This document shows positions 44,300 to 51,414 of a DNA stretch of 51,414 bases, in pieces. Within the stretch, counting starts at the first letter, position 1. The number at the start of each line of letters is the position of its first letter. The notes under the pieces were generated by a model. The model searched no databases. It was not told the DNA's origin and saw nothing but the letters and a program-made list of their open reading frames with translations. Both the position numbers and the translations under genes were made by a program. Location of the stretch: the NCBI GenBank assembly GCA_018648225.1, contig JABGRQ010000152.1, forward strand, positions 1-51,414, given 5' to 3'. Origin of the DNA: Chloroflexota bacterium. GTDB taxonomy: Bacteria; Chloroflexota; Anaerolineae; Anaerolineales; UBA11858.

Positions 44300-44657
44300 C
44301 CCCAGGCCGACCAGGCGATCGCAGTCCGATGTTTTGTCGGATTGAGGAAAGTCCGCACTCCATAGAGCGCGATGCCGGATAACATCCGGAGGGAAGCAAT
44401 TTCCTGGATCGGGCCACAGAAACAGGTAGCCATCCCCCACGGGGTGAATGGTGATAGTGAAAAGGTGGTGTAAGAGACCACCGGCGCGGGTGGCAACATC
44501 CGCGGCCAGGCAACCCCCATCGGGAGCAAGGCCAAGCAGGCGCGAGGGGCTGCTCGCCCCGTCGAAGCGTCGGGTAGGCTGCACGAGGTGTGGGGAGACC
44601 TGCATCCCAGACAGATGATCGTCCTCGACAGAATGCGGCTTATCGGTCGACCTGGGG
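44300..44657 (+). ncRNA. rnpB: RNase P RNA, bacterial type A
   Basis: The ends pair as P1: CCCCAGG (44300-44306) with CCTGGGG (44651-44657), continued by CGACC/GGTCG. The conserved core is visible: GAGGAAAGTCCGCACTCC near the 5' end, ACAGAAA, GGTGAA, GTAAGAGACCACCGG, AGACAGATGATCG, and the closing ACAGAATGCGGCTTAT. The length of about 358 nt fits type A. This is the catalytic RNA that trims the 5' leader of pre-tRNA. A recombinase gene ends 46 bp after it, so the 3' end may be an integration site. Confidence 0.95.
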
Positions 44658-44703
44658 TTAGGTTTTTCCTACTAACTGGTACCTTACCATTGGAATACAT
44701 GAA

Positions 44704-45603
44704 TCACTCGCTTCGTAGAGATATTGATCGAGGATGATATCGCTTGAAGATACGGCGGCGACTTTCTACAGTATCAGGTGCATAATAAAGTCTTGTTGTT
44801 CTCAATTCGCTGTGGCGTAAAAATTCACGAGCTTCATCAAGGGAAGCACCGTTTTCCCTGAGGTTGCGAGCAATGGTTGTCCGAATTCTGCGTGGGTAAA
44901 TATCCTTTACGCCTCTTTCTTCTCCATATTGTTTCACAACTCGGTGAATGTCTTTTCGTGTCCATTTATTACCATTCAATTTTATGAAAAGATTATCATC
45001 GAGTGACAAATAGTTTGTGAATTTGCGTAATGGTTCGATTAGGTACTCAGGAATGTGCACATACTGAGTCATTCCACCTTTGGTCATTTCAAGGATTATG
45101 ATTCCGTCGTCCAAATTGATATCTCGTTTCCTGAGGTTGGCAACTTCTGAAGATCGTAGAGCATTGCAATCCAGTAACGCCATAGTAAGGATGATTTGGT
45201 ACCGCTGGCGTTGATAATGGAATCGAAGAAAATTCAATCTTTCTACTTGTTTTTGAGAAATATCGCTCGGGTGGTTATGGATTGGCTGAACACCAGCTTG
45301 GAAAACAAGTTTTCGAAATCTTTTAGAAAACTTCCCCGGCAGATATAGATTGCCATTTAGGGTGGGGAATAGATGTTCCGATTCAGGAAACATTTCATCC
45401 CGCCTTTGAAGAAATTCCATCCATAACTTCGATAATGGAAATGAATTTGAATTTTGGATATTAATCTCGTCGTTGATTATTTCAATTGCTTTTCGCTGAA
45501 ATTGTAAACTCTCTTGAATAGATTTTCCCGAGTGCCGAATTAGATGAATGATTGATAGATCACGTAAAGTAATAAACTCACCAAATTTCTCGAAGTCTCT
45601 CAT
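44704..45603 (-). CDS. Tyrosine recombinase, catalytic part (split integrase)
   Basis: The 299-residue product starts at 45603, with GGGAG seven bases upstream, and overlaps the preceding core-binding gene by 26 bp in another frame. Active-site positions: R150 (NALRSSEVANLR), K175 (TKGG), R241 (PRRIRTT), H264 (FLRHSELRTT), Y273 (RLYY). The usual HxxR histidine is replaced by R238. Before it, residues 14-105 look like a second, degenerate catalytic fold (RDLSIIHLIRHSGKSIQESL, HLFPTLNGNLYLPGKFSKRFRKL) lacking the arginine. Such enzymes insert elements at specific sites. Its 3' end lies beside rnpB. Confidence 0.75.
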   Translation of the reverse strand: MRDFEKFGEFITLRDLSIIHLIRHSGKSIQESLQFQRKAIEIINDEINIQNSNSFPLSKLWMEFLQRRDEMFPESEHLFPTLNGNLYLPGKFSKRFRKLVFQAGVQPIHNHPSDISQKQVERLNFLRFHYQRQRYQIILTMALLDCNALRSSEVANLRKRDINLDDGIIILEMTKGGMTQYVHIPEYLIEPLRKFTNYLSLDDNLFIKLNGNKWTRKDIHRVVKQYGEERGVKDIYPRRIRTTIARNLRENGASLDEAREFLRHSELRTTRLYYAPDTVESRRRIFKRYHPRSISLRSE

Positions 45604-45970
45604 ATAAATCTCCCATAAGATGATCCATTGTGTCGTTCGCGATATGAGGAGTTGGGTTGATGATTTTGCGAAAGGTGATTTCCATGTTTTCCATGGGTTC
45701 TGGTGTAGGAGCCAGCCTTTGGCGATATAAAAATTTCCAATAACGGTATACGCCATAGGCGACACGTTCAACTGTAGATTCGGATAGGTTGGTGTTCCTC
45801 AGCCATGCAATGAAATCTTCAAATAGATCTTGATTGATCGTTACGTCATTTATCTCAATTTGCTCTAGAAAACTATGATATCGCATAGCATCCCGTACAT
45901 ATGAGTAGACTGTTGAATCAGCACGACCCAATGTCCGCCTTAGATATTTTTCGAATTCTTGTAATGACAT
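45578..45970 (-). CDS. Tyrosine-recombinase core-binding domain (split integrase, N-terminal part)
   Basis: A 130-residue product that starts at 45970, with AAGGAAG nearby. MSLQEFEKYLRRTLGRADSTVYSYVRDAMRYHSFL resembles the SAM-like N-terminal domain of phage integrases, which contacts DNA arm or core sites. It ends in ...MGDLYERLREIW at 45578, overlapping the catalytic gene by 26 bp. In most relatives the two parts are one protein, so this is a frameshift or a genuine two-gene layout. Confidence 0.7.
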   Translation of the reverse strand: MSLQEFEKYLRRTLGRADSTVYSYVRDAMRYHSFLEQIEINDVTINQDLFEDFIAWLRNTNLSESTVERVAYGVYRYWKFLYRQRLAPTPEPMENMEITFRKIINPTPHIANDTMDHLMGDLYERLREIW

Positions 45971-45992
45971 AATGGCTTCCTTATTGATGGAC

Positions 45993-46028
45993 AACTGTGC
46001 ATACAGTTACCATTATTATACGGATAAT
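45993..46028. promoter_or_regulatory. Candidate operators between the recombinase and double-HTH regulator
   Basis: Two inverted repeats with 4-bp spacers lie in the 81-bp divergent gap: AACTGT-GCAT-ACAGTT (45993-46008) and ATTAT-ACGG-ATAAT (46015-46028). They are well placed for a regulator that controls both directions. Binding is inferred. Confidence 0.45.
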
Positions 46029-46051
46029 TACCTAAAAGTCAAGGAAATATT

Positions 46052-47005
46052 ATGGAAGAGTTATCACAATCAATCGTAAATTGGATCAAGGATGTCAGGA
46101 AAAGTAAGGGACTTTCTTTAACTGAGCTTGGCAATCGAGCAGGTATCACACATTCACAATTGAGCCGCATCGAGAACGGAGTTTCGGCCCTAACGTTATT
46201 TTCCTTGATTCGAATGTTGCATGGGATGAATTACTCGTTTACTTCATTATTTAGTGAGAAAATTATTGATAGCAAATTTCCACTGCCAAGCATCTATCTA
46301 GAAGAAAAAACCGAATCGTACCAATATCCAGTCATAAAGTTTAGCGATATTGATAGCTTTGTCCATTTCATCCTGTACAGGAAAAATGCCAGAATTATTA
46401 TTGCAAAATGGATAAAACACTATTTGAAGAACTATACATCATGGGCAGATGAAACCATAGCAGTACTAATGGATGAAGCAATTACTCTGCTTACTTTTCC
46501 GTCAGTTGATAATCGAGAAGGATCTCTATATGAAAATCTTTGCTATCCGATAGATATTGGCGTTGATAAACTTAGAAAAATCTATCTATCAGGGGGGGTA
46601 CTGCTAATGAGGGATATTGGGGCCTATATCCGAAATCAGAGAATAGCTAGTAACCTTTCCCTGAGGGCTCTCAGCAGCAGGATCGATTTTTCTCACCCAG
46701 GGTTAATTAAATTGGAATCAAACATTGGTGATAGAGTCATTTTCTCTGATATTCTAAAATTAGATCGAGCATTGGGAGTTGATGGTGAACTAGTAGCACT
46801 CGCATGGAGAGCAGGCGAATTATATCTGGGGGTTCACAGGATTTACGAAAGGAAAGAGTTTCCTTTGCCTTATACAACACGTGAGGTTGAATGGATCGAA
46901 AGGTTAGTCATTGTCCAGAGGATCTACCAACATTTTGATCTGGATGAAGAAATCCAATCTTGCATAGCTGATCTAAGGGAGAATGCCGTTTTGGATCCTT
47001 CATAA
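46052..47005 (+). CDS. Regulator with two XRE-type helix-turn-helix domains
   Basis: The 317-residue protein has one Cro/C1-type HTH at residues about 11-63 (WIKDVRKSKGLSLTELGNRAGITHSQLSRIENG). A second lies at about 189-245 (IGAYIRNQRIASNLSLRALSSRIDFSHPGLIKLES). They are joined by a helical/linker region of about 120 residues with no family I recognise. Most XRE regulators have one HTH. It is divergent from the split integrase, so it probably controls integration or the island's expression. Base composition is AT-rich, like the recombinase. Confidence 0.75.
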   Translation: MEELSQSIVNWIKDVRKSKGLSLTELGNRAGITHSQLSRIENGVSALTLFSLIRMLHGMNYSFTSLFSEKIIDSKFPLPSIYLEEKTESYQYPVIKFSDIDSFVHFILYRKNARIIIAKWIKHYLKNYTSWADETIAVLMDEAITLLTFPSVDNREGSLYENLCYPIDIGVDKLRKIYLSGGVLLMRDIGAYIRNQRIASNLSLRALSSRIDFSHPGLIKLESNIGDRVIFSDILKLDRALGVDGELVALAWRAGELYLGVHRIYERKEFPLPYTTREVEWIERLVIVQRIYQHFDLDEEIQSCIADLRENAVLDPS

Positions 47006-47128
47006 AATGTGGAGTACATCTATATACGTAACAAGACCTTACTTTTGGGGAAATTGCTGAAAACTGTAATATACTGTCACATCCTTGATCTCAGCTTGAT
47101 TCTACAATACGAGCATGAGAGAACCTAA

Positions 47129-47398
47129 ATGAAGAAGTATAAAGTTGGTCAGACCGTGGATGCAGTTGTCGAGAAAGTGCTGCCATTTGGTGTTTTCGCG
47201 CGTCTAGACGGTGAGACTATTGGGTATATTCGTCACCGCGAAATGAATATAGATACCGATGTGGATCCTTCGCAGGATTTGCAAGCTGCTTTGCCAGGCA
47301 AGGTTTTGTTGGTAATGACGTCTGTCGGGCCAGTGCCAGAGATTTTAATGCGCATGGCAGGTGAAGGGGTTTGTGATATAGCCGGGCGGATAAGCTAA
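47129..47398 (+). CDS. Small S1-domain RNA-binding protein
   Basis: An 89-residue protein made of one S1-like fold (KVGQTVDAVVEKVLPFGVFARLDGETIGYIRHREM), followed by a short C-terminal segment with no recognised motif. GAGAG lies 8 nt before the ATG. It lies alone between the regulator and the AbiE pair. RNA binding is inferred from the S1 fold; function unknown. Confidence 0.65.
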   Translation: MKKYKVGQTVDAVVEKVLPFGVFARLDGETIGYIRHREMNIDTDVDPSQDLQAALPGKVLLVMTSVGPVPEILMRMAGEGVCDIAGRIS

Positions 47399-47432
47399 AC
47401 CTTCTGCTGAAAACCATCCTTGTCAATCTGAT

Positions 47433-47479
47433 ATTTATATTGGATAATATACAAGATATGTATATTATCCAATATAAAT
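47433..47479. promoter_or_regulatory. Long palindromic operator before the AbiE pair
   Basis: Two perfect 20-bp arms (47433-47452 / 47460-47479) flank a 7-bp spacer, ending one base before the abiEi ATG at 47481. AbiEi antitoxins are known to repress by binding inverted repeats in their own promoters. No Shine-Dalgarno is visible between the palindrome and the start. Confidence 0.75.
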
Positions 47480-47480
47480 T

Positions 47481-48122
47481 ATGAGCAATTCAATTCTTTC
47501 TTCCTTCGAAAATTTGCCCTATTTCACCATCGCCGGATTTCGACAAATGGCAGGGGATTCGATTTCCAACGATCATTCCGCGCGGGTGGCGCTCTCGCGC
47601 CGGGCGAAAGCCGGGCAAATCTTTCGCCTGAAAAATGGCGTTTATATGCACCGCCGCTTCTATGAGCGGCACCGGCAAGATGCCGCTTTTTCAGCCATCA
47701 TCAGCGCCATCTTGTTACCACAGTCGTATCTATCTTTGGAGTACGTCTTACAGCAAAACGGTATCCTGACAGAAATCACCTACCCGATCACTGCCATCAC
47801 CACTAAAAATACGCACGCCATTGATAATGCGGCAGGCGATTTTGTATACCGCCACATCCGGCCTGAGCTGTATCGAGGCTTTCATATCGCAGAGGCCTAT
47901 GGCATCCCCTATGCGCAAGCTACTCTGGCAAAAGCGCTGTTTGATTATCTGTACCTGCGCCCCCTGGATACCCGCGCGAATCTGGCCGAAGAACTGCGCC
48001 TGAATTTGGATGATTTCACGCCCCAAGAACGTGATGAATTCGCTGGATATGTAGCTATCAGTGGCAAACCCAAAATGCGCAACATCCTTACCAACCTGGA
48101 GAAATATGTATGGCGACCTTGA
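47481..48122 (+). CDS. abiEi: AbiEi-family antitoxin
   Basis: The 213-residue protein has an N-terminal winged-helix part (ENLPYFTIAGFRQMAG..., then ARVALSRRAKAGQIFRLKNGVYMHRR, about 34-59). The C-terminal domain (SLEYVLQQNGILTEI..., IPYAQATLAKALFDYLYLRPL) is as in AbiEi antitoxins. It represses its operon and counteracts the AbiEii toxin by an indirect (type IV) mechanism. It overlaps abiEii by 13 bp. Confidence 0.85.
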   Translation: MSNSILSSFENLPYFTIAGFRQMAGDSISNDHSARVALSRRAKAGQIFRLKNGVYMHRRFYERHRQDAAFSAIISAILLPQSYLSLEYVLQQNGILTEITYPITAITTKNTHAIDNAAGDFVYRHIRPELYRGFHIAEAYGIPYAQATLAKALFDYLYLRPLDTRANLAEELRLNLDDFTPQERDEFAGYVAISGKPKMRNILTNLEKYVWRP

Positions 48123-48961
48123 TCCAAACCATGCAAAACGTGCTGGATAGTAAAGACCCGCTTCTGGCTGTTGAAACCAAACGCATTATTCTCAAGGAAG
48201 TGCTTCAGGCGCATGTGCTGGATTTTCTGTACAACCACGCCGCCTATCGCAAATTGAACTTCTACGGTGGCACTTGCCTGCATATCATTTATGAACTCAA
48301 TCGTCTTTCCGAAGACCTGGACTTTGATAACCAGACCGGGCTGGAACTGAGCAATCTTCACGTAGATTTATTGGCTCATTTTCAACAAACGCTTGGTTAC
48401 ACAGATATTTCTGCCAAGCAACAGGAAGGGGCTGGTGGCATCCTGCGTATCACGCTCAAATTTCCGCTGCTCTATGAGTTAGGGCTTTCTCCACATGCCA
48501 GTGAAGCCTTACATCTCAAAGTAGAAATTAGCCATCACGATCAGGTGTGTATTGTTCAACGCACCCCAGTTATGGTATATGGGCGCAGTCTGGTCGCCAG
48601 TCATTTTTCGCTGGAAACCATGCTGGCGGGCAAAATCCTGGCTTGCCTGGAACGCTCCTTTGAGAGCGGAAAAAGCGGAGCTACTGTCAAGGGACGTGAT
48701 TTTTACGATCTGCTCTGGTTTATGCAGAAGCGCATCTGGCCGCTTGAAGAAAAACTCGCACAAGATGGGGGAAAACCATATACAGTACAAAGTGCTATGC
48801 TGGCCTTGCAGGAAAAAATTGACTACATTCCAAAGCGTACCCTTGCCATAGATTTGCTGCCCATGTTTGAATCGCGCAGTTTCATCGAGACCTGGTTGGA
48901 TGTATTCCATGAAAATTTCAACACGCTGATGAAAACTTACCTGGATAATTCCTTAATATAA
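48110..48961 (+). CDS. abiEii: AbiEii-family nucleotidyltransferase toxin
   Basis: The 283-residue protein shows the DUF1814/AbiEii motif set: FYGGTCLHIIY (about 51-61), RLSEDLDFD (65-73, acidic pair D69/D71), and KGRDFYDLLWFMQ (about 188-200). AbiEii is a nucleotidyltransferase toxin that halts growth, giving phage defence by abortive infection or plasmid stability. The 13-bp overlap with abiEi gives tight translational coupling. Confidence 0.88.
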   Translation: MATLIQTMQNVLDSKDPLLAVETKRIILKEVLQAHVLDFLYNHAAYRKLNFYGGTCLHIIYELNRLSEDLDFDNQTGLELSNLHVDLLAHFQQTLGYTDISAKQQEGAGGILRITLKFPLLYELGLSPHASEALHLKVEISHHDQVCIVQRTPVMVYGRSLVASHFSLETMLAGKILACLERSFESGKSGATVKGRDFYDLLWFMQKRIWPLEEKLAQDGGKPYTVQSAMLALQEKIDYIPKRTLAIDLLPMFESRSFIETWLDVFHENFNTLMKTYLDNSLI

Positions 48962-49120
48962 CTGCTCTTGTACGACGGCTTGACCCTGAGAGACTTCGCA
49001 TAAGTGGTGCCTAACGGGGGGCTAAGAGCGGAAAAAGTCTTCAGATAATTGCGTTTCGCACGCTTTTGCACTACACTTATATGGATTCCATTCCAGCTAG
49101 CCAAATTACAGGGGAATCCC
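48962..49120. other. Spacer between the AbiE pair and hsdR
   Basis: I see no gene, no strong hairpin and no confident promoter. A GGGGAA stretch a few bases before the hsdR ATG could be its ribosome-binding site. Confidence 0.5.
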
Positions 49121-51414
49121 ATGCCCACACCCGAAGAACAGGCCCGTAAGATCATCGACCAGAAGCTGACCGCCGCCGGTTGGATTGTGCAGAATTATAA
49201 ACATCTCAACCTCGGCGCAGGGATTGGGGTGGCTGTGCGCGAGTTTCCGACGGGGCGCGGGGAAGCAGATTATCTGCTCTTTGTGGATCGGAAGGCTGTT
49301 GGGGTGGTGGAGGCAAAGCCCGAGGGAACAACGCTCAGCGGGGTTTCGGAGCAATCGGCGAAGTATCAGACCAGCTTTCCAGATGATATTCCGCATGTGG
49401 AGCTGCCGCTGCCTTTTGCGTATGAAAGCACGGGCGTGGAGACGCATTTTACCGACATCCGTGACCCGGATTATCGTTCGCGGCGGGTCTTTTCTTTTCA
49501 TCGTCCAGAGACGCTGAGGGATTGGCTCTCTGTTGGGCGGGGCGACCCCGCCCCTACGTTGCGCGGACGATTGCGCGAGATGCCGCCTTTGATTGAGAAG
49601 GGGTTGTGGAAGGCGCAGATTGAAGCGGTCTCGCAATTGGAGCAATCTTTGGCGCAGGGGCGACCGCGCTCCTTGATCCAGATGGCGACGGGCAGCGGGA
49701 AGACCTTTACGGCGGTGAATTTTATTTATCGGCTGATCAAGCATGGCGGGGCGAAGCGCGTTCTTTTCCTTGTCGATCGCAATAATCTCAGCAAGCAGAC
49801 CTTGGCGGAGTTCCAGAAATTCCGCACGCCGGATGATGGGCGTTTATTCACCGAGTTGTATAACGTCCAGCGGTTGACGAGCAATATGATTGACCCCGTC
49901 AGCAAGGTAACGATCACGACCATTCAGCGGCTGTATTCGATGTTGAGGGGCGAGGAATATGAAGAAGAGAACGAAGAAGAATCGCTCTTTGAGGCCCTCA
50001 CCGCCCCCACCCCTAACCCCTCCCCCGCGAGCGGGAGAGGGGGATTAACTGTCGAATATAATCCCGAGATCCCCATCGAAGCGTTTGATTTCATCGTTAC
50101 GGATGAGTGCCATCGTTCAATCTATAATCTTTGGCGGCAGGTATTGGAGTATTTCGATGCTTTCCTGATCGGGCTGACCGCCACGCCATCGAAATATACG
50201 CTGGGATTTTTCAACCAGAATTTGGTGACGGAATATACCCATGAACGCGCGGTTGCGGATGGCGTCAATGTCGGCTATGAAGTCTATCGCATCCGCACGA
50301 AGATCACGCAGGAGGGCAGCCAGGTGGATGCGGGCGAATATGTGGATAAACGCGATAAAAAATCGCGCGCAGATCGTTGGGCGGTGGAGCTGGAAGAAGA
50401 CCTTGAGTACGCATCCAACCAACTCGACCGCGATGTGGTTGCGATTGACCAAATTCGTACCGTTGTGCAAACCTTTCGAGATCGGCTTTTTACGGAGATT
50501 TTTCCCGGGCGCAGCGAAGTGCCCAAGACGCTGGTTTTTGCCAAAGATGATTCGCACGCCGAAGATATTACCAATATCATTCGCGAGGAGTTTGGCAAGG
50601 GGAACGAATTTTGCAAGAAGATCACCTACAAAACCACAGGAGAAACACCCGAAACGCTGCTGGCTTCTTTCCGCAATAATTACAATCCGCGCATTGCGGT
50701 TTCGGTGGATATGATCGCGACCGGCACCGATATCAAGCCGCTCGAGTGCCTGCTTTTCATGCGCATGATCCGCTCGCAGGGTTATTTTGAGCAGATGAAG
50801 GGGCGCGGCACACGCGTGATTTCGGATACGGATTTGCGGGCGGTGACGGCCGATGCGGGGCATAAAACCCATTTTGTGATCGTGGATGCGGTCGGCGTTT
50901 GCGAGCAGGATAAAACGGATATGCGTCCGCTGGAGAAGCAGAAAACGGTGCCTTTCGCCAGGTTGATGCAGCGGGTGGCGATGGGTGTGCGGGATGCGGA
51001 TTCACTGGAATCGCTCGCGGGACGCCTCTCCCGTTTGGATAGGGCACTCAAGCCCAAGGATCGGGAGCGTATCGCCCGTGTTTCCGGCGGAATCCCGCTA
51101 AAGGAGATCATCCACACTTTGATGGATTCCGTTGATCCAGACATCCATCTTCAACATGCGCGCGTTAAATGGGCAGACGTCTCGCCTGAGAGCATCGCCA
51201 AAGCCGAAGCGGAGATCATCCAGAAAGCTTGTGCGCCTTTTGATGATGGCGATTTCCGCACGTTGTTGGAGGCGCTACAAAAAAATTCTGAGCAGGTGAT
51301 TGATATTGTCAGCCGAGATGAATTAATTAGCGCGGGTTTGGAAAGCGAAAAGGCGCAAGCGGATGTGCAAAGTTTTCGGCAATTTATCGCTGAGAATAAG
51401 GATGAGTTGACGGC
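49121..51414 (+). CDS. hsdR: Type I restriction R subunit (HsdR), runs off the window edge
   Basis: At least 764 codons, open to the edge. Residues 1-130 hold a PD-(D/E)xK nuclease (D50, E64-A-K66). The SF2 helicase core shows ATGSGKT (189-195), DECH (328-331), GLTATP (351-356) and QMKGRGTR. It cleaves DNA after HsdM/S-directed translocation; hsdM and hsdS are not in the window and presumably lie beyond. Two interspersed repeats have been absorbed in frame: GC-rich palindrome at residues 137-145 (SVGRGDPAP) and C-rich element at 292-308 (ALTAPTPNPSPASGRGG). GGGGAA lies near the ATG. Confidence 0.88.
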   Translation, partial: MPTPEEQARKIIDQKLTAAGWIVQNYKHLNLGAGIGVAVREFPTGRGEADYLLFVDRKAVGVVEAKPEGTTLSGVSEQSAKYQTSFPDDIPHVELPLPFAYESTGVETHFTDIRDPDYRSRRVFSFHRPETLRDWLSVGRGDPAPTLRGRLREMPPLIEKGLWKAQIEAVSQLEQSLAQGRPRSLIQMATGSGKTFTAVNFIYRLIKHGGAKRVLFLVDRNNLSKQTLAEFQKFRTPDDGRLFTELYNVQRLTSNMIDPVSKVTITTIQRLYSMLRGEEYEEENEEESLFEALTAPTPNPSPASGRGGLTVEYNPEIPIEAFDFIVTDECHRSIYNLWRQVLEYFDAFLIGLTATPSKYTLGFFNQNLVTEYTHERAVADGVNVGYEVYRIRTKITQEGSQVDAGEYVDKRDKKSRADRWAVELEEDLEYASNQLDRDVVAIDQIRTVVQTFRDRLFTEIFPGRSEVPKTLVFAKDDSHAEDITNIIREEFGKGNEFCKKITYKTTGETPETLLASFRNNYNPRIAVSVDMIATGTDIKPLECLLFMRMIRSQGYFEQMKGRGTRVISDTDLRAVTADAGHKTHFVIVDAVGVCEQDKTDMRPLEKQKTVPFARLMQRVAMGVRDADSLESLAGRLSRLDRALKPKDRERIARVSGGIPLKEIIHTLMDSVDPDIHLQHARVKWADVSPESIAKAEAEIIQKACAPFDDGDFRTLLEALQKNSEQVIDIVSRDELISAGLESEKAQADVQSFRQFIAENKDELT
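49535..49553. repeat. GC-rich palindrome inside hsdR
   Basis: GGGCGGGG-CGA-CCCCGCCC, two perfect 8-bp arms, translated in frame as VGRGDPAP. The adjacent CTACG matches a common interspersed-repeat end. Confidence 0.75.
49994..50043. repeat. C-rich palindromic repeat inside hsdR
   Basis: A member of the CCCTCACC...CCCCTAACCCCTCCCC family. The 12-base arms 50017-50028 / 50031-50042 pair with one mismatch. It keeps the hsdR frame open and adds about 17 residues. Confidence 0.8.

Follow-up and report, generated by a model that had tools for sequence, protein, structure and literature searches.

Islands integrated in structural RNA genes share a characteristic organization: a tyrosine recombinase adjoins the RNA gene, and of the two junctions one carries the restored 3' end and the other a short copy of it (PMC4383910). 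Islander is confined to tRNA and tmRNA genes, and the TIGER/Islander classes comprise tRNA/tmRNA, coding and intergenic sites, with rnpB not named among them (PMC12424338). The dusA-specific integrases are a family that keeps to a single chromosomal gene in many genomes; they use the 5' end of a protein-coding target and are encoded by one gene (PMC4482086). At the level of the enzymes, the simple tyrosine recombinases (Xer, RitA/B/C and the TnpA subgroups) combine a core-binding with a catalytic domain; RitA has two core-binding domains and is yet one chain (PMC8138268). Integrase genes in two pieces are known from the partitioned 'suicidal' archaeal integrases, where the gene is cut by integration itself (PMC8371274).

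The locus described here is predicted to share the above organization but differs in its target, the 3' end of the RNase P RNA gene rnpB, and in its recombinase, which is encoded by two genes. The window, i.e. the whole stretch of DNA that was analysed, is one complete contig of 51414 bp (G000:C152) from a genome of 4.0 Mb in 226 contigs. Its sequence leads us to propose, with a probability of about 85%, that it holds the left end of an integrative island inserted into the 3' end of rnpB, equipped with a two-polypeptide tyrosine recombinase and belonging to a family of rnpB-specific islands. Structural RNA genes are known to host site-specific islands; what appears new here is the rnpB site and the split enzyme. 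A search of the open-access literature (subscription literature was outside its scope) found rnpB nowhere described as an island site, nor any recombinase whose core-binding and catalytic domains are on separate genes. The features of the window are the following:

44303-44658, + strand: rnpB, RNase P RNA class A, intact, the predicted integration target (Rfam RF00010, 257.8 bits, full length over model positions 1-367)
44632-44653, + strand: AATGCGGCTTATCGGTCGACCT within the rnpB tail, candidate attL core on the analogy of G595, a relative with a 22-bp direct repeat
44704-45603, - strand: intC, catalytic polypeptide of 299 aa with an extra N-terminal segment (Pfam Phage_integrase, 5e-25)
45578-45970, - strand: intN, core-binding (SAM-like) polypeptide of 130 aa with a 26-nt overlap with intC (Pfam Phage_int_SAM_1, 2e-8)
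45609-45614, - strand: SD-like GGGAGA before the intC start, within intN (anti-SD pairing -7.3 kcal/mol)
45993-46008, no strand: 16-bp palindrome AACTGTGCATACAGTT in the spacer between intN and the regulator, a possible operator (hairpin-forming inverted repeat, z = -4.3)
46052-47005, + strand: divergent regulator of 317 aa with two Cro/CI-type HTH domains (Pfam HTH_3 and HTH_31)
47129-47398, + strand: S1-like ORF of 89 aa, possibly chimeric (Pfam S1, 7e-5)
47433-47479, no strand: perfect 21+5+21 inverted repeat, the AbiE operator (z = -10.5)
47481-48122, + strand: abiEi, antitoxin/regulator (PADLOC AbiEi, 4.5e-42)
48110-48961, + strand: abiEii, nucleotidyltransferase toxin (Pfam AbiEii, 1e-17; PADLOC, 1.7e-32)
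49121-51414, + strand: type I restriction subunit HsdR, truncated where the contig ends (Pfam HSDR_N and ResIII; PADLOC REase_I, 6e-53)

The left boundary is placed at the rnpB 3' end, because the closest relative (G001), in which the upstream genes are syntenic, aligns as far as position 44659 at 82% and nowhere past that point, and because the recombinase is absent from the other six genomes of the window's genus. On the opposite strand, intC runs to the end of its stop codon at 44704, 45 bp past rnpB, and the GC content is 0.37-0.41 across 45000-47500 versus 0.55-0.59 in the aspartokinase region, climbing again across AbiE and HsdR. An earlier sequence-only reading of this DNA had the recombinase gene ending 46 bp from rnpB and the first genes richer in AT than the chromosome, with both of which these values agree. 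It had also found no second rnpB tail inside the window and placed the right boundary outside; this extends to the whole assembly, where a search for attR with a 23-mer and a 20-mer, at up to three mismatches, returned only rnpB itself and chance-level matches, a control pattern matching equally often. The right flank of G001 was likewise not found in the window's own genome. The contig stops inside HsdR, so that the right end of the island would lie outside the assembled sequence. In the window the P1 stem of rnpB is paired throughout except for one C.A mismatch; this was considered as a mark of tail replacement and dropped, 12 of the 13 occupied loci being fully paired.

The recombinase belongs to a family with a strikingly uniform location. 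The window protein retrieved two homologs (36-37% identity), both directly past rnpB and with the same regulator, and a profile of these three sequences, run against 400 genomes of the same order (Anaerolineae, Chloroflexota), detected 14 homologous loci in 13 genomes. Retrieval of these loci and an Rfam scan place all 14 directly past the rnpB 3' end, the intC stop lying about 30-125 bp beyond it, which supports the earlier claim that the island is anchored there. Genus g6 contributes three carriers of the module; 57 genomes of g6 were searched for rnpB, and among the 30 whose flanks were read, two of these three carriers are the only ones with the recombinase directly after rnpB. In a phylum-wide search, the window and G392 gave the only full-length members (over 400 bits), and no relatives were found in viral contigs. 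The other phylum-wide matches cover mainly the catalytic part at under 90 bits and, looking like generic Xer-type recombinases, were set aside. The family thus resembles the dusA-specific integrases in its bond to one chromosomal gene, but differs from them in using the 3' end of an RNA gene and a two-gene recombinase (PMC4482086).

The sequence-only reading took the recombinase for a single gene, which proved wrong: in all 12 complete modules the core-binding and catalytic domains are encoded not in one ORF but in separate ORFs that overlap in different frames. The intC start precedes the intN end by 23 nt in ten modules, by 26 nt in the window and by 29 nt in G743, and intC is always in the +1 frame relative to intN (12/12). 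This constant frame, together with the fact that the joined frames would make one core-binding-plus-catalytic enzyme, is what a single protein produced through programmed +1 frameshifting at the intN end would predict. We nevertheless consider that unlikely: the intN stops are variously TGA, TAA or TAG, with differing preceding codons and no common slippery site, whereas an intC start codon (ATG in 11, GTG in one) is kept at the above positions even though the intN residue encoded over it varies. The intN codon at this point specifies Y, D, N, H or S and always ends in T, followed by G; hence it is the start codon of intC rather than the residue of IntN that appears conserved. Further, an SD-like stretch lies just upstream of intC, which in five loci provides the best anti-SD pairing of any intN window; in all loci except G572 at most about 11% of intN windows pair as well, and the value for the stretch analysed here is equalled by 3.9%. 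Thus, the variable stops, the conserved start and the SD-like site favour coupled translation of two polypeptides over frameshifting. In having their gene in two pieces these recombinases recall the archaeal 'suicidal' integrases, but here the pieces overlap at one place and are intact, intC having a start codon and an SD-like stretch to itself.

The catalytic R, K, R, H and Y of IntC are invariant in the 12 modules, the first residue of H-x-x-R being R, Q or K in these recombinases, and a comparison with the PDB, which bears on IntC residues 130-272 only, gives a catalytic fold of the XerA/XerD/Cre type. The first about 115 residues found no match in the PDB comparison, from which a new fold does not follow. 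In a profile comparison they align in matching register with the catalytic part of IntC itself (97 columns, E = 7e-5, probability 62%), which, with a model of moderate confidence, is suggestive of a degenerate catalytic-like segment. The pair resembles the simple tyrosine recombinases in having core-binding and catalytic domains with no arm-binding domain found, but departs from them in the separation of these domains on two genes and in the additional segment before the catalytic domain of IntC (PMC8138268). On balance, we lean towards seeing these proteins as a distinct clade of tyrosine recombinases: a two-subunit enzyme of translationally coupled polypeptides with an inactive catalytic-like segment, dedicated to islands that enter the RNase P RNA gene.

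Both ends of such an island are seen in one relative only, G595, where the 22-bp AATGCGGCTTATCGACCAGCCA of the rnpB tail recurs 43.6 kb downstream on the same strand (22/22 bp identical). The two copies enclose the split recombinase and the regulator along with a complete type I R-M system, further genes and two additional tyrosine recombinases; because of the latter, the split recombinase is only a candidate maker of this insertion. G742, a congener of G595 that lacks this recombinase, matches it as far as rnpB, and its sequence from rnpB+1343 again matches G595 from attR+1341 onward; being collinear with G595 on both sides at the right spacing, it represents the matching empty site. In the other loci, the 0.6-11 kb downstream yielded only short chance-like matches to the tail, and no repeat was found in the longer flanks of G572 (36.7 kb) and G660 (12 kb). 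The direct repeat for which the sequence-only reading had looked past rnpB is present in G595 and was not found in the window's own assembly, and the empty-site comparison it had proposed succeeds on both flanks for G742 and G595 and, for the window itself, on the left flank only, via G001.

At the far end of the G595 island (oriented positions 49072-51390), beside attR, we observed an unsplit tyrosine recombinase and an actin-like gene (ParM-type by eye).

These data also bear on the possibility that the split recombinase and its regulator constitute a resident, non-mobile chromosomal module beside rnpB, with the cargo arriving by other routes. Such an arrangement would account for every member being at one locus and could draw on the fact that most contigs stop before any right boundary, as well as on the occurrence of AbiE in other contexts, where it would be movable without the module (see below). 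The patchy presence of the module (13 of 400 genomes, with other congeners lacking it), the attL/attR pair of G595 with its empty site in G742 and the different cargo at each locus make it very improbable, and argue instead for an integrative island. That the two ORFs are simply a frameshifted pseudogene or an assembly error can be dismissed, even though the genomes are draft MAGs and the G719 copy is truncated at its N-terminus and without intN, because the frame change is conserved: 12 independent assemblies show the same +1 overlap, their sequences being 31-37% identical to that of the window and their catalytic residues invariant. In G719 itself (L022/L039) intC is kept from about residue 48, the intC start and intN are lost and rnpB is intact; we read this copy as a decaying island.

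Mechanistically, IntN and IntC, translated from their overlapping genes, are predicted to act as a complex in recombination between the chromosomal rnpB tail and a copy of it carried by the island; this would restore rnpB at the left junction and leave a short repeat of its tail, 22 bp long in G595, at the right. The recombinase promoter is probably repressed by the divergent regulator, which has Pfam HTH domains in both halves, as the earlier reading of it as a double-HTH protein implied, and of which 10 of the 12 complete modules have a homolog divergent to intN. In most occupied loci (about 44679-44702 in the window), the interval between rnpB and the intC stop contains a recurrent motif resembling GTACCTTTACAATTGAATAC, which may be an island-borne binding site for the recombinase. 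The remainder would be exchangeable cargo, which in the window comprises AbiE and probably also the type I restriction subunit.

AbiE is a type IV toxin-antitoxin system. With AbiEi and AbiEii adjacent in an operon and an inverted repeat upstream, the pair in the window is ordinary cargo without notable difference from known AbiE. Its assignment with a long operator in the sequence-only reading, like that of a type I restriction R subunit, is matched by the PADLOC and Pfam hits listed above. Between 47309 and about 49000, the window matches DNA of G001 and G006 at 91-92% identity, and in both of those genomes this segment stands in other contexts; as against 82% for the core DNA of G001, this suggests that the AbiE segment moves on its own. 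From 47309 the DNA of the S1 ORF matches the region upstream of AbiE in both genomes, where the upstream gene differs; as this homology begins inside the ORF, the S1-like ORF may be a chimeric junction product. The near-chromosomal GC content of HsdR implies that it could lie outside the island; only this partial HsdR is present in the window, and HsdR, HsdM and HsdS all occur in the G595 island. Beyond the module, the cargo differs per locus: AbiE and HsdR in the window, type I R-M in G595, and NACHT/FGE-sulfatase proteins and a sacsin-like ATPase in others. No conjugation or phage structural genes appear among the cargo Pfam families listed (for G595, the top 25 families). With several cargo genes being known or candidate defence genes, the label of a defence island given to this locus earlier is fair but not exclusive.

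If the proposal of an rnpB-specific island is correct, rnpB joins the structural RNA genes that serve as docking sites for islands, and its module becomes a marker for accessory defence cargo in Chloroflexota. The naturally split enzyme would likewise demonstrate that a core-binding and a catalytic domain are able to function on separate chains, a point of relevance to how tyrosine recombinases evolved and to split-recombinase tools. Since the 3' end of rnpB (GCGGCTTA) shows high conservation among bacteria, the site could be used widely.

Several other rnpB loci show unusual 3' ends. G489 has two recombinase loci, the second contig opening with 167 bp of the rnpB 3' end about 30 bp before the second intC. 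The rnpB 3' ends of its two contigs (L048 and L044) are 97.6% identical over 168 bp, with a different intC after each; this could reflect islands in tandem, a second copy of rnpB or a bin that mixes two strains. In genus g6, six loci without a recombinase (L087, L060, L063, L068, L074 and L076) have one or two extra rnpB 3' tails in tandem, placed after rnpB and ahead of the following gene, and ACAGAA is followed there by an inserted CCCC...GGGG hairpin; lost islands could have left these tails as scars, or they could be a repeat of another kind. Finally, in G004 (L012, start to 508) a deoC-like frame lacking its N-terminal part opens abruptly at the rnpB 3' end, possibly representing another rnpB junction or a misassembly.
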